Source: Companilactobacillus pabuli
GTDB lineage: Bacteria > Bacillota > Bacilli > Lactobacillales > Lactobacillaceae
Assembly: GCF_014058425.1 (NCBI RefSeq)
Contig: NZ_CP049366.1
Location: 310,001 to 374,000 of the forward strand
Length of the DNA stretch: 64,000 nt
Direction: 5' to 3'
Shown here: positions 46,799 through 56,405 of the stretch, one piece after another
Layout: every line of letters begins with the position of its first letter
How positions within the stretch are numbered: position 1 is the stretch's first letter
The notes under the pieces: generated by a model
What the model was told of the DNA's origin: nothing
The model's database searches: none
What the model saw: the letters and a program-made list of their open reading frames with translations, nothing else
Position numbers and translations under genes: made by a program

Positions 46799-48026
46799 GT
46801 TAACTCTTGAACAAAGAATTAAATACTTGCTTGAAAATGAGTATATTAATCAACGACAGGCTGATTCATTGCTGAAACGTCAAACTATTTCAAAAGATTT
46901 AGCTGATAGTTTGAGTGAAAACCAAATCGGCAGTTTTAGTTTGCCTTATGGTTTTGCCACTGACTTCTTAGTTAATGGCAAAGACTATATAGTACCGATG
47001 ACGATTGAAGAACCATCAGTTGTGGCCGCGGCTTCAAATGGTGCTAAAAGAATCAAGAATAGCGGTGGTTTCAAAGCTTTCCCATCTAAACGTATCGTTT
47101 ATGGCCAGATTGTTTTGGAAAAAATTACTGATGTTGATTTTGAACAATTAGAACAAAACAATTCAGAAATTTTTAGTTTCGCTCAAAATGCCCATCCAAG
47201 TTTACTTAAACGTGGTGGTGGCGTTGTGTCGTTGAAATTCAATCGCTATGACGAGTTTACTGAAATTGAATTAGGGATTGATACTGTTGATGCAATGGGT
47301 GCCAATATGGTCAACACAATTTTAGAAAAAACGGCTCACAAAATTGTTGAATTAACTAATGATGACGTTTTGTGTAGTATTTTGTCCAACAGTGGTCAAG
47401 GTCAGGTCATTACCGTTGAAGCAAGAGTTGATTTTGCTCAATTAGGGACGAAAAACATGGCTGGTGAGCAAGTTGCCAATAGAATCGTCCAATTATCCAA
47501 CTTTGCTCAAAAGTCGATTAAACGTGCAATTACGCACAATAAAGGTATCATGAATGGAATCGATGCAGTCTTATTAGCTACAGGAAATGATTTCCGAGCT
47601 CAAGAGGCAGCTGCTCATAGTTTTGCTTTTGAATCAGGACAGTATCAGCCATTCAGCGAGTGGCACATTGAAGATAATCAATTGGTTGGAACTTTGAAGA
47701 TGCCAATTGAACTAGGTAGCGTTGGTGGTGCTATTAGAGCGTTGCCAATGGCTCAATTAAGTTTAGCAATTATGAAAATTGAAAATAGTCAGGAATTGCA
47801 ATCAGTTGTTGGTGCGGTTGGCTTGGCTAATAATTTATCAGCTATCAGAGCTTTAGTTACAACTGGTATTCAAGCTGGTCACATGGGGTTACAGAGTAAG
47901 TCCTTAGCAGTTTCTGCTGGAGCAATCGGTTCTGAAATTCACTTAGTTGCTGAAAAATTGAATCAAACTAAAGATTATACAATCAAGAATGCTGAAAATA
48001 TTTTGAAAGAGTTGAGAGAAAAATAA
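46785..48026 (+). CDS. mvaA: Hydroxymethylglutaryl-CoA reductase, degradative/class II type
   Basis: Reduces HMG-CoA to mevalonate. Motifs: LPYGFATDFLVNGKDYIVPM, VEEPSVVAAASNGAK-like segment (here IEEPSVVAAASNGAK, catalytic Glu), DAMGANMVNT (class II signature) and GHMGLQSKSLAVSAGA with the catalytic His near the C-terminus. I place the start at ATG 46785 (MKIYELTLEQRI); the frame runs 39 bases further upstream inside the thiolase gene. Confidence 0.95.
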   Translation: MKIYELTLEQRIKYLLENEYINQRQADSLLKRQTISKDLADSLSENQIGSFSLPYGFATDFLVNGKDYIVPMTIEEPSVVAAASNGAKRIKNSGGFKAFPSKRIVYGQIVLEKITDVDFEQLEQNNSEIFSFAQNAHPSLLKRGGGVVSLKFNRYDEFTEIELGIDTVDAMGANMVNTILEKTAHKIVELTNDDVLCSILSNSGQGQVITVEARVDFAQLGTKNMAGEQVANRIVQLSNFAQKSIKRAITHNKGIMNGIDAVLLATGNDFRAQEAAAHSFAFESGQYQPFSEWHIEDNQLVGTLKMPIELGSVGGAIRALPMAQLSLAIMKIENSQELQSVVGAVGLANNLSAIRALVTTGIQAGHMGLQSKSLAVSAGAIGSEIHLVAEKLNQTKDYTIKNAENILKELREK

Positions 48027-49180
48027 TGGATATAGGTATTGATAAAATAGGCTTTTATGTACCAAAGGATTATATTGATATTGTTGAATTAGCTAAGAGA
48101 AGAGACGTTGATCCTAATAAATTTACGATTGGAATCGGTCAAGATAAACAAGCTGTTCCATTGCCTCATCAAGACGCTGTAACAATGGCTGCTAGTTCAG
48201 CTGACAGTATTTTGACAGATGACGATAAGAAGAATTTAGGGATGATGATTGTCGGAACTGAAAGCAGTGTCGATGAATCTAAGTCAACTGCCGCCTTTTT
48301 GATGGATTTGTTAGATTTGCCAGAAGATATTCGTGCATATGAAATCAAGCAAGCTTGTTATGGAGCTACCGCTGGATTACAAACTGCTTATGATTTTGTC
48401 AGTTTAAATCCTGATAAAAAGGTTTTAGTCATCGCAACTGATATTGCCCGCTACGGTATCAAGACACCTGGAGAAGTCACTCAAGGTGCTGGATCAGTTG
48501 CTATGTTGATCAGCCAAAACCCACGAGTTTTGAAATTAAATCACGAATCAGTTTACATGACGAAGAATGTCGGTGATTTCTGGCGTCCAACATTCTCAAA
48601 GACAGCTTTTGCTAGAGGAAAATTCTCTAATGAAATTTACGTTAATTTCTTTGAAACTTTATGGACTAAATTCCAAAATAAATATTCTGTGACAGCAGAT
48701 GACTTTTCTACGATGCTTTTCCACATCCCTTATACAAAGATGGGAACTAAAGCTTTGCGAACTCTAGAAGGGAAGGTTTCCGATGAGAAATATGCTGAAT
48801 TGACAGACCACTATCAAAATAGTATTAAATTCAGTCGAGATGTTGGTAATCTTTATACAGGTTCACTTTATCTAGGCTTATTGTCATATTTAGTTAATGG
48901 TGCTCAAGCTGATGAAAACGTCTTGATGTTTAGCTACGGTTCAGGGGCCGTTGGTGAATTGTTCAGTGCCAAAATTCAACCAGATTTTGAACAAGTTATC
49001 AACAAGCAAGCTCTAGTAGATATGCTAAATAATCGTCAAAAAATCAGCATCGATGAGTACGAAAAAATTTATCAAATTGAATATAAAAATGACACAATCG
49101 TTGATCCAACAACTATTAGTGACAAATTCTATTTGAGTGAGATCAAAGAAAATGAACGTATTTATAAAAAGTTAAAATAA
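48026..49180 (+). CDS. mvaS: Hydroxymethylglutaryl-CoA synthase
   Basis: Condenses acetyl-CoA with acetoacetyl-CoA to HMG-CoA. The nucleophile is C111 (EIKQACYGATAGLQ), the same number as in the studied staphylococcal enzyme. Other conserved parts: TESSVDESKS, FHIPYTKMGTKAL (His) and MFSYGSGAVGELFS. 384 residues. Its ATG overlaps the mvaA stop. Last gene of the operon; directly followed by the promoter of the first tandem RNA, with no separate terminator visible. Confidence 0.96.
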   Translation: MDIGIDKIGFYVPKDYIDIVELAKRRDVDPNKFTIGIGQDKQAVPLPHQDAVTMAASSADSILTDDDKKNLGMMIVGTESSVDESKSTAAFLMDLLDLPEDIRAYEIKQACYGATAGLQTAYDFVSLNPDKKVLVIATDIARYGIKTPGEVTQGAGSVAMLISQNPRVLKLNHESVYMTKNVGDFWRPTFSKTAFARGKFSNEIYVNFFETLWTKFQNKYSVTADDFSTMLFHIPYTKMGTKALRTLEGKVSDEKYAELTDHYQNSIKFSRDVGNLYTGSLYLGLLSYLVNGAQADENVLMFSYGSGAVGELFSAKIQPDFEQVINKQALVDMLNNRQKISIDEYEKIYQIEYKNDTIVDPTTISDKFYLSEIKENERIYKKLK

Positions 49181-49184
49181 AATA

Positions 49185-49213
49185 TTGTAAACGCTTTCTT
49201 AAGATGTTATATT
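49185..49213 (+). promoter_or_regulatory. Promoter and cre site of tandem RNA A
   Basis: TTGTAA (49185-49190), 17 bases, TATATT (49208-49213) with an extended -10 TG at 49205. A full 15/15 match to the CcpA site WTGNAANCGNWNNCW (49185-49199) covers the -35 box, so carbon catabolite repression is expected. Start near 49220. Confidence 0.8.
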
Positions 49214-49219
49214 AAAGAC

Positions 49220-49585
49220 GTGGTAAAGATGAAGTGTCAAGAACTGTAGCCCTAAAAAGATTTTGATTCAGAAAATGTTATCGTTTTCCAGGAGATGGTA
49301 GGATTAGTCTAGAACAAATAAAAATTAAGGTAGTACAGTTCAACGGCATTTTAGGAACTAGCGAAAAAAGTTAACATAAGATCGACCTAATTAGTAGTAG
49401 TCGCGCAAGCTCAATACATAGTTTGCTAGGATCCTATAGTTGAACTAACATAAGTAGTACATATTCATATATAGTAAGATATGTTTCAGGTAGTAAGATT
49501 CATTTAACGTTGATGAAACTGCAGTAAATTTCATCTTACCACTTATATCTAACTAGGGACTTCCAACTCACGGAAGTCCTTTTTT
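49220..49585 (+). ncRNA. Tandem structured RNA, copy A (~366 nt)
   Basis: Noncoding transcript bounded by a promoter and an intrinsic terminator. The 5' end GTGGTAAAGATGAA pairs with TTCATCTTACCAC (49530-49542) with one bulged base, closing the molecule. GAACTGTA (49241) pairs with TACAGTTC (49334), overlapping an alternative GTTCAAC (49338) with GTTGAAC (49439). GATGAAA (49512) pairs with TTTCATC (49529), competing with the closing helix. Long blocks are identical in copy B. It is not tmRNA, RNase P or 6S RNA by their conserved cores. Family not recognised. Confidence 0.75.
49557..49585 (+). terminator. Terminator of RNA A
   Basis: GGACTTCC-AACTCAC-GGAAGTCC followed by six Ts. Confidence 0.9.
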
Positions 49586-49623
49586 ATTGTCAAAAAAAAT
49601 CCGTACTGTCTACAGCGTCAAAG

Positions 49624-49652
49624 TTGTAAACGGTTACGGAAGGTGCTATATT
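49624..49652 (+). promoter_or_regulatory. Promoter and cre site of tandem RNA B
   Basis: TTGTAA (49624-49629), 17 bases, TATATT (49647-49652) with extended -10 TGC, the same geometry as RNA A. The cre TTGTAAACGGTTACG fits 14 of 15 positions and covers the -35 box. Start near 49659. Confidence 0.8.
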
Positions 49653-49658
49653 ATAGAT

Positions 49659-50033
49659 GTGGTAAAGATGAAGTGTCAGGAACTGTAGCCCTGAATGATT
49701 TTGATTAAGAAAGTTTTATCTCTGAAGTTTGGTAAGATTAGTACAAAGCAAATGAAAGTTAGAGTCAGTACAGTTCAACGACATTTTTGGGACTAGTGCC
49801 AAAAGTTAACATAAGATCGACCTAAAAAGTAGTCGCGCAAACTCAATACATGTTGCATTAGGATCCATTAGTTGAACAATATACATGTGTTAATAAAGTA
49901 AGATATGTTGCAAGTAGTAAGATTTAGAATTTAGATTCAATGTTTAAGTTTTAAAGTTGATGAAACTACAGTAAATTTCATCTTGCCACTTATATCTAAC
50001 TGAGGACTCCCAGAGTGTGGGAGTTCTTTTTTT
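49659..50033 (+). ncRNA. Tandem structured RNA, copy B (~375 nt)
   Basis: Second copy, strongly diverged in some stretches but identical in blocks, such as AACATAAGATCGACCTAA and CGCGCAA. The closing helix is kept although its 3' arm reads TTGCCAC instead of TTACCAC (U-A becomes U-G). GAACTGTA (49680) with TACAGTTC (49769), GTTCAAC (49773) with GTTGAAC (49871), and GATGAAA with TTTCATC are all retained. Both RNAs also carry the six-codon frame ATG AAG TGT CAR GAA CTG TAG at the 5' end, without a clear ribosome-binding site. Confidence 0.75.
50004..50033 (+). terminator. Terminator of RNA B
   Basis: GGACTCCC-AGAGTGT-GGGAGTTC followed by seven Ts; it shares only the GGACT start with the RNA A terminator. 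Confidence 0.9.
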
Positions 50034-50131
50034 ATGCTTAAATATACAAATCAGCAATCTCAAGCAATAATCATTGGTCAAAGCTAGAACTCGCCGTAAA
50101 ATGTGGTAAATATTAAAAGAGGCGAGTAGCC

Positions 50132-50293
50132 ATGAAAAAGCTATTACAATTGATCCTGGTTATCATTGATCTTTGCATAATGATTACTGCACCGTTAGTT
50201 ATTGCAATAATTGCTTTTGTTATAGGGATGTTATTTCTATTCCACTATATTTTTGATTTTGAAGAAAAAACTGAACATACAAAAAAAGATTGA
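50132..50293 (+). CDS. 53-residue membrane protein, unknown
   Basis: Short frame beginning MKKLLQLILVIIDLCIMI, with one or two hydrophobic helices (residues ~4-38) and a charged C-terminus (DFEEKTEHTKKD). AGAGGCGAG precedes the ATG. It lies between RNA B and a convergent SLAP-3D gene and shares a terminator with it. No family recognised. Confidence 0.6.
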   Translation: MKKLLQLILVIIDLCIMITAPLVIAIIAFVIGMLFLFHYIFDFEEKTEHTKKD

Positions 50294-50319
50294 ACCCCTC
50301 ACAGATTCAATCTTTTTTA
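50281..50319. terminator. Bidirectional terminator
   Basis: AAAAAAGATTGAA / TTCAATCTTTTTT around an 11-base loop, shared by the small + strand gene and the SLAP-3D gene. Confidence 0.85.
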
Positions 50320-55415: not shown

Positions 55416-56405
55416 TTAGTTGGTACTTTGGCGGAAGACTAATTTTGTAGCTAGAATGACTTTTTTGGCAACGTGTCGAGGGTTAGTTAAGACATCTTGG
55501 ATTGAATCGACAGCTGTCTCTCCCATTTGAATTGTGGCCACAGCGACTGAGCTGAGTTCAGGATTTACGAGACTAGCTATGGAAGTGTCATTGAAACTAA
55601 AGATTTGAACTTGGTCAGGCACAGAAATTTGTTCTTCCTGCAGAGCCTTCAGGGCACCACTAGCCATTGGGTCGTTAGAAATGAAGAAGGCTTTTGGCAA
55701 ATTGGGCAACATTTTAATAGCTTGTTTCATTTGTTGATAACCGGATTCCTTCGTGAAATCACCCTTGAAACAAAGTTCAGCTTTAAAAATACTGTGCTTG
55801 TTCATAGCCTGTTGAAAACTATTGAAGCGAAAGTCGGGGATGATTCGTTTGTCATCAGTGGAAGTTTCTTCGCCATAGATTAAACCAATATCAGAAATAT
55901 TTTGACTAGCAAAGTAGTCAATAACTTGTTCAATACCGTAATTGAAATCAGGTAAAACTGTATCAAAACCCTTAGCAAATTGGTCATCGTCAATGAAGAC
56001 TAAATTGGAACTGATTCGTTTCATAGTCATTACTTGGTCTGAACTGAATTTTCCGATAGCAATGATTCCGTCGATGTCATTTGGAATTTGTTCCAAGTCA
56101 TTGTGAAAGATTCTTAATATTTCAAAGCCGTATTTAGGAGCTTGTTGTTCGATACCTTCACGAATCGTCATATAGTAGAGGTCATCTTGTTCTTTTGATT
56201 CGGAATACCACTGAACTAAGGCGATGTGCTTTTGAAAACGAGAATTCTTGTGATTGGCTTTTTGATAGTTTAAGTCAGTCGCAATTTTTAGAATATTAGT
56301 CCGTGTTTGATCAGTGACTGATAAAGTCAAATCGTTGTTTAAAACTCGTGAAACTGTAGCGGCAGAAACGTGAGCTTTTTTGGCAATATCTCGTAAAGTA
56401 GCCAT
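55416..56405 (-). CDS. galR: LacI-family regulator of the galactose operon
   Basis: N-terminal LacI HTH (ATLRDIAKKAHVSAATVSRVLNND) followed by a periplasmic-binding-protein-like effector domain; 329 residues. It is the last gene behind galK and galT and its start overlaps the galT stop, so it probably regulates this operon. It has the Lactobacillus GalR arrangement; the effector (galactose or a derivative) is inferred from context. Confidence 0.9.
   Translation of the reverse strand: MATLRDIAKKAHVSAATVSRVLNNDLTLSVTDQTRTNILKIATDLNYQKANHKNSRFQKHIALVQWYSESKEQDDLYYMTIREGIEQQAPKYGFEILRIFHNDLEQIPNDIDGIIAIGKFSSDQVMTMKRISSNLVFIDDDQFAKGFDTVLPDFNYGIEQVIDYFASQNISDIGLIYGEETSTDDKRIIPDFRFNSFQQAMNKHSIFKAELCFKGDFTKESGYQQMKQAIKMLPNLPKAFFISNDPMASGALKALQEEQISVPDQVQIFSFNDTSIASLVNPELSSVAVATIQMGETAVDSIQDVLTNPRHVAKKVILATKLVFRQSTN

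Follow-up and report, generated by a model that had tools for sequence, protein, structure and literature searches.

Tandem structured RNA genes behind mvaS: a Companilactobacillus-specific family, possibly CcpA-repressed and perhaps a stand-in for 6S RNA

We describe two tandem genes for a structured non-coding RNA lying directly 3' of mvaS in a stretch of 64,000 nucleotides (nt) from Companilactobacillus pabuli (contig NZ_CP049366.1, positions 310,001 to 374,000; hereafter the window). Our favored reading, to which we give a probability of roughly 0.55, is that they belong to a genus-specific family of CcpA-repressed, trans-acting structured regulatory RNA genes, perhaps taking over the function of 6S RNA. 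There are one to three such genes per genome, mostly 3' of mvaS, and each full-length copy, read from a promoter of the extended -10 type, would give a non-coding RNA some 365 nt long. The family is new in that it is absent from Rfam 15, and its kind, a carbon-controlled structured regulatory RNA, is already known. What lifts it above routine is a possible tie to the loss of 6S RNA.

The preliminary description of this DNA, made from the sequence alone, had placed two consecutive units behind mvaS, each with an extended -10 promoter TTGTAA-17-TATATT, a catabolite-responsive element (cre, the predicted CcpA site) over the -35, about 370 nt of conserved noncoding sequence, and a terminator of its own that differs from the other. 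All of these elements were recovered in the window sequence. They are listed below as positions in the window, the convention for all coordinates in this text, which refer to the plus strand unless stated.

48026-49180, plus strand: mvaS (hydroxymethylglutaryl-CoA synthase, TIGR01835), conserved upstream neighbor
49185-49213, plus strand: promoter of copy 1, TTGTAA-17 nt-TATATT with TG preceding the -10 (consensus match)
49185-49200, plus strand: predicted cre over the -35 of copy 1, 1 mismatch to WTGNAARCGNWWWCAW
49219-49581, plus strand: RNA copy 1, inferred transcription start at about 49219-49221
49220-49235, plus strand: 5' strand of P1, the closing stem of copy 1, pairing with 49528-49542
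49236-49347, plus strand: 5' domain of copy 1 with arms P2, P3, and P4 (P4 is 49275-49282 with 49297-49304)
49339-49344 (UUCAAC) with 49439-49444 (GUUGAA), plus strand: probable pseudoknot of copy 1
49353-49435, plus strand: central domain of copy 1 (P5, 49353-49364 with 49423-49435; P6, 49383-49386 with 49400-49403)
49490-49522, plus strand: P7 hairpin of copy 1
49528-49542, plus strand: 3' strand of P1 of copy 1
49555-49581, plus strand: intrinsic terminator stem of copy 1, followed by a T-run
49624-49652, plus strand: promoter of copy 2, TTGTAA-17 nt-TATATT with TG preceding the -10 (consensus match)
49624-49639, plus strand: predicted cre over the -35 of copy 2, 2 mismatches to WTGNAARCGNWWWCAW
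49658-50028, plus strand: RNA copy 2, folded as copy 1 (P1 is 49659-49674 with 49975-49989)
50002-50028, plus strand: intrinsic terminator stem of copy 2, followed by a T-run

Counted from 6 nt past the -10 and including the whole terminator stem, the two RNAs are 363 and 371 nt long. They share 75% identity in BLAST, which finds exactly these two copies in the genome. The two terminator stems are unlike each other in sequence, and a scan of the region returned four terminator-like sites, two each on the plus and minus strands, where 0.5 would be expected. The identity of mvaS is given by TIGR01835, matched above its curated cut-off.

The RNA is restricted to the genus Companilactobacillus. 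It was found in 35 of the 36 genomes of the genus, the sole miss being G020, a genome of 1.5 Mb. The preliminary description had suggested a covariance-model search of Lactobacillaceae, and we ran one with a model, R1, built from 26 copies. Under strict filters, R1 matched 25 of 397 genomes of the family, all from the genus itself; this sample holds 26 genomes of the genus and 371 from 39 other genera, none of which was matched. With laxer filters, a search of one genome for each of the 39 other genera plus G020 gave nothing at E<=0.001, and 4 of these 40 genomes had matches at E<=1, the best at E 0.08. A weak R1 match in G020 (17.3 bits) was rejected, as it has neither mvaS nor any other neighbor from the window within about 3 kb and, judged by eye, appears to be coding. 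In GTDB, a pattern scan returned 27 rows, 26 with Companilactobacillus in the title and one from an uncultured Lactobacillus metagenome-assembled genome. There was no match in phage or plasmid collections (blastn), nor in viral contigs (pattern).

The promoter and cre sequences draw their weight from conservation, since within the window alone they are no rarer than chance. The bare promoter consensus has 5 matches in the region for 6.5 expected, and WTGNAARCGNWWWCAW is matched at up to 2 mismatches 53 times across the window for 44.5 expected. For the comparison between genomes, nhmmer gave 63 pieces, from which we kept 56 full-length copies in 35 genomes. In all 56, the first base of the best cre is exactly at -34 relative to the start of the RNA, with 0, 1, 2, and 3 mismatches in 7, 24, 22, and 3 copies, respectively. 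When the 70 bases upstream of the RNA are shuffled, about 2.5% attain 2 mismatches or fewer; these are simple shuffles, and the 56 copies are kin, hence not 56 independent cases. The -35 TTG is present in 56/56 copies, TATATT and the TG each in 52/56, and the latter two together in 49/56. The gene for CcpA itself was found in the genome above the curated cut-off. That a cre overlapping the -35 mediates repression is knowledge from other Firmicutes (PMC8414754; this and later statements from that paper draw on part of it).

A conserved multi-armed fold is well supported by comparison of the copies. Copy 1 has a folding z-score of -4.66, with none of 100 shuffles equally stable, and copy 2 a z-score of -2.97, with 1 of 100. 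The RNAalifold consensus of 26 copies has 59 pairs; once the pseudoknot of 6 pairs is added, 97.1% of the cells in an alignment of 61 copies are paired, an alignment that was fitted to R1 and is thus biased towards its structure. In the same alignment, 29 pairs show changes in both partners, compared with 8.9 in shuffles (0/500 as high, a test inflated by kinship among the sequences), and sliding the partners by 1 to 3 columns lowers the pairing to 36-47%. Covariation is best in P2, P3, and P5, and strongest in P5, while the double changes in P6 come from a single sequence each. P1 is supported more by pairing than by covariation because it is nearly invariant; it appears in the minimum-energy fold of 56/56 copies folded without their terminators. 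The pseudoknot is probably real, with 87.8% of cells paired and 3 of its 6 pairs changed on both sides. The segments GAUGAAA and UUUCAUC are almost invariant and have two possible pairings, one within the closing stem and one as a local 3' hairpin; the latter is pairable in 98.3% of cells and has zero covariation. A free covariation scan gave many high-scoring column pairs outside the structure, among which no further helix was seen.

The preliminary description had named a conserved long reading frame in homologues as evidence that would speak against a non-coding RNA, and there is none across the 56 full-length copies; we therefore reject protein coding. A small-peptide mRNA or a dual-function RNA is the least probable of the alternatives that we weighed: single copies do hold short open reading frames, and one of 53 aa is common to two closely related copies, L038 and L065, but the longest start-to-stop frames, of 12 to 53 aa, agree neither in place nor in sequence when the 56 copies are compared.

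R1 recovers 61 copies from 35 loci, with one copy in 13 loci, two in 18, and three in 4. In 31 of the 35, no more than 60 nt separate mvaS from the first copy, and the window shows no terminator in the interval from mvaS to copy 1. Both points would fit a cis-acting element, either the 3' untranslated region (UTR) of mvaS or the leader of a downstream gene. However, every copy comes with a promoter and a terminator of its own, the genes downstream of the RNA differ among loci, and in three loci the first copy stands farther from mvaS (248 nt in L038, 1442 nt in L065, and 2747 nt in L059); the fourth exception, L045, is a piece at a contig end that carries no mvaS. Together, these observations make a cis-acting role very improbable. 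In a tree of the 56 copies there are two starred clades, one formed by 14 of the 20 first copies and the other by 11 of the 20 second copies; the remaining forks around both are poorly resolved, and the labels of first and second copy each need 5 changes on this tree against 16.6 in shuffles. The largely separate clades show that the duplication is old and that both copies have been retained in many species.

The preliminary description had recognized no known RNA family in the two units, a view borne out by our searches. No Rfam 15 family matches the window at the gathering threshold, none matches positions 48900-50300 even at E<=5, and we found no description of this RNA in open-licence PMC papers. 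Its reading of a carbon-regulated, duplicated large non-coding RNA agrees with the missing Rfam match and the lack of a conserved frame, and gains support from them at the sequence level. Among known RNAs, GOLLD, ROOL, and OLE are likewise large, structured, and non-coding. GOLLD and ROOL are associated with phages or mobile elements; the mvaS-linked RNA differs from all three in having no Rfam match and no match in phages, plasmids, or viral contigs. The name of GOLLD derives from Lactobacillales (PMC12286853, in the part drawn on here).

Another known RNA for comparison is RsaI of Staphylococcus aureus, a base-pairing small RNA (sRNA) that is repressed by CcpA at high glucose and pairs with the Shine-Dalgarno (SD) sequence or the 3' UTR of its targets (PMC9266662, in the part drawn on here). 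It shares with the mvaS-linked RNA a non-coding nature and CcpA repression, the latter deduced in our case from the cre sequence match alone, and unlike ours it is a known base-pairing sRNA, while the mvaS-linked RNA has no Rfam match. The mvaS-linked RNA might thus be a trans-acting sRNA of carbon metabolism of this type, repressed by CcpA and using conserved unpaired segments, for example GUUAACAUAA, CUCAAUACAU, and UAGUAAGAU, to pair with mRNAs. Many positions in the unpaired segments are indeed conserved above 90%, and multicopy sRNAs are common. Base-pairing sRNAs of the RsaI kind typically carry a C-rich seed complementary to the SD, but the motifs CCUCC, CUCCU, UCCUC, UUCCC, and CCCUU occur in 0/61 copies, terminators not counted; by the same count, GCCCU occurs in 39/61. 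The RNA is also large for a pairing sRNA, with its length of about 365 nt, a closing stem of 15 bp, and a probable pseudoknot. We regard this alternative as the main rival, possible but less probable than our favored reading.

The family acquires further interest from the state of 6S RNA in the genus. 6S RNA has been reported from nearly all bacteria, and in lactic acid bacteria (LAB) it is a single-copy gene usually placed between rarA and uspA (PMC8414754). The Rfam model RF00013 matched 74 of 201 genomes of the family and 0 of the 36 genomes of the genus. We built a family model, R2, from 29 6S sequences, and it matched 144 of the 201 genomes (including the 29 source genomes), spread over 29 of 40 genera and for the most part at E <1e-20, and none of the 9 genomes of the genus in this sample. 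Searched over the 36 genomes of the genus at E<=1, R2 gave 21 matches in 16 genomes, the best at 23.5 bits and E 5.1e-4. The 10 of these weak matches that were available as loci were examined and look like chance; 7 of them lie within open frames of 129-851 aa and 3 within frames of 52-118 aa, with no rarA, membrane protein gene, or uspA within 1.5 kb of any of the ten.

The usual place of 6S tells the same story. In other genera, 6S sits between rarA and uspA in 12/12 6S loci having long flanks. In Companilactobacillus, rarA is present in 36/36 genomes. Every one of the 30 loci read has rarA (MgsA_C), a gene for a small membrane protein, and uspA (Usp) side by side, the latter two separated by 70-86 nt as measured from their aligned ends. 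The interval is thus closed, with no room for 6S, in 30/30. From the missing RF00013 and R2 matches and this closed interval, canonical 6S RNA appears to have been lost in the genus. The C. pabuli genome has three genes of the rarA/MgsA type (G000:C1:2250371, 784540, and 1050762), of which, by open reading frame, only the one at 784540 is adjoined by uspA.

One could suppose that the mvaS-linked RNA is itself a very diverged 6S, relocated to mvaS and duplicated. The usual place of 6S is empty, the cre over the -35 is shared with the 6S promoter of about one third of LAB species, and B. subtilis carries two 6S RNAs (PMC8414754). The likeness extends to the own promoter and terminator and the closing stem, LAB 6S being a global regulator (PMC8414754). 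However, LAB 6S is a rod of about 185-190 nt with a central bubble, whereas the mvaS-linked RNA is multi-armed, nearly twice as long, has a probable pseudoknot, and stands in one to three copies mostly behind mvaS instead of once between rarA and uspA. RF00013 matches nothing in the window at the gathering threshold, nor positions 48900-50300 at E<=5, and R2, tested with its filters off on 4 of the 35 mvaS loci, nowhere exceeded 10 bits. Without a match to either model, and with another shape and another place, membership in the 6S family was rejected, and we consider a diverged 6S highly improbable.

The mvaS-linked RNA might instead do the work of 6S without being related to it. That a genus without recognizable 6S carries it suggests a stand-in role, and the promoter logic, as in many LAB 6S genes, together with the near genus-wide presence where 6S is missing, makes this a lead; in L. 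lactis, 6S rises 3-fold in a ccpA mutant (PMC8414754). The idea that the RNA is a stand-in for 6S as a carbon-controlled global brake on transcription is nonetheless tentative, and we would rather bet against it than for it. The same doubt attaches to its fuller form, in which the genus lost 6S and replaced it by an unrelated, duplicated, CcpA-controlled RNA doing the same job, a non-homologous replacement in which GAUGAAA/UUUCAUC could be the release switch. If true, a nearly universal regulator of transcription would have been replaced by a non-homologous RNA. The genus allows a test of whether the function of 6S is replaceable, and of what the cell needs when sugar is exhausted. Independently of this, a well-supported RNA family and a working covariance model are added beyond Rfam 15.

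Returning to the reading of a CcpA-repressed, trans-acting regulatory RNA, the mechanism would run as follows. CcpA with HPr-Ser-P would block the promoter while a good sugar is present; at sugar limitation, the block would be lifted, and the RNA would build up. The RNA would then work in trans; binding of a protein by the conserved internal loops and stem is a likelier mode than pairing through an antisense seed.

Several points weigh against this reading or its extension to 6S. We infer the expression, the CcpA binding, and the targets. The argument for protein binding, drawn from the absent CU-rich seed and the conservation of the loops, is weak. Four of the five truncated or decayed extra copies have a worse cre (3, 4, and 3 mismatches) or none, and only one (L052) retains a perfect site; at the fixed place, the mismatches number 3 in L053, 4 in L056, 3 in L061, 9 in L058, and 0 in L052. 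The RNA is unlike 6S in shape and length. G020 has neither the mvaS-linked RNA nor a 6S match. Finally, the genus could have a 6S at another place that has diverged beyond the reach of both models, which is conceivable because R2 also misses ten other Lactobacillaceae genera in the 201-genome sample.

The five extra copies differ in what they have lost. The third copies of L053 (2669-2906) and L056 (3443-3682) and the second copy of L061 (3373-3607), all in locus coordinates, have the P3-P4 arm shortened to a small hairpin and, judged by eye, retain promoter and terminator. The third copy of L058 (3019-3320) has a decayed look and no cre, and the second copy of L052 is missing its 3' part. Within the P4 arm of copy 1 in the window, there is a second cre-like site (1 mismatch, 49275-49290, minus strand), which by eye seems to be a poorer match in other copies. 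Farther downstream lies a gene for a LacI-family regulator (55416-56405, minus strand) whose best NCBIfam match is EbgR, below the cut-off. Lastly, a sigma-70-like promoter, CTGACA-18-TATAAT (11/12 match), runs antisense across the start of copy 2 (49679-49650, minus strand) and could yield an antisense transcript running towards copy 1.
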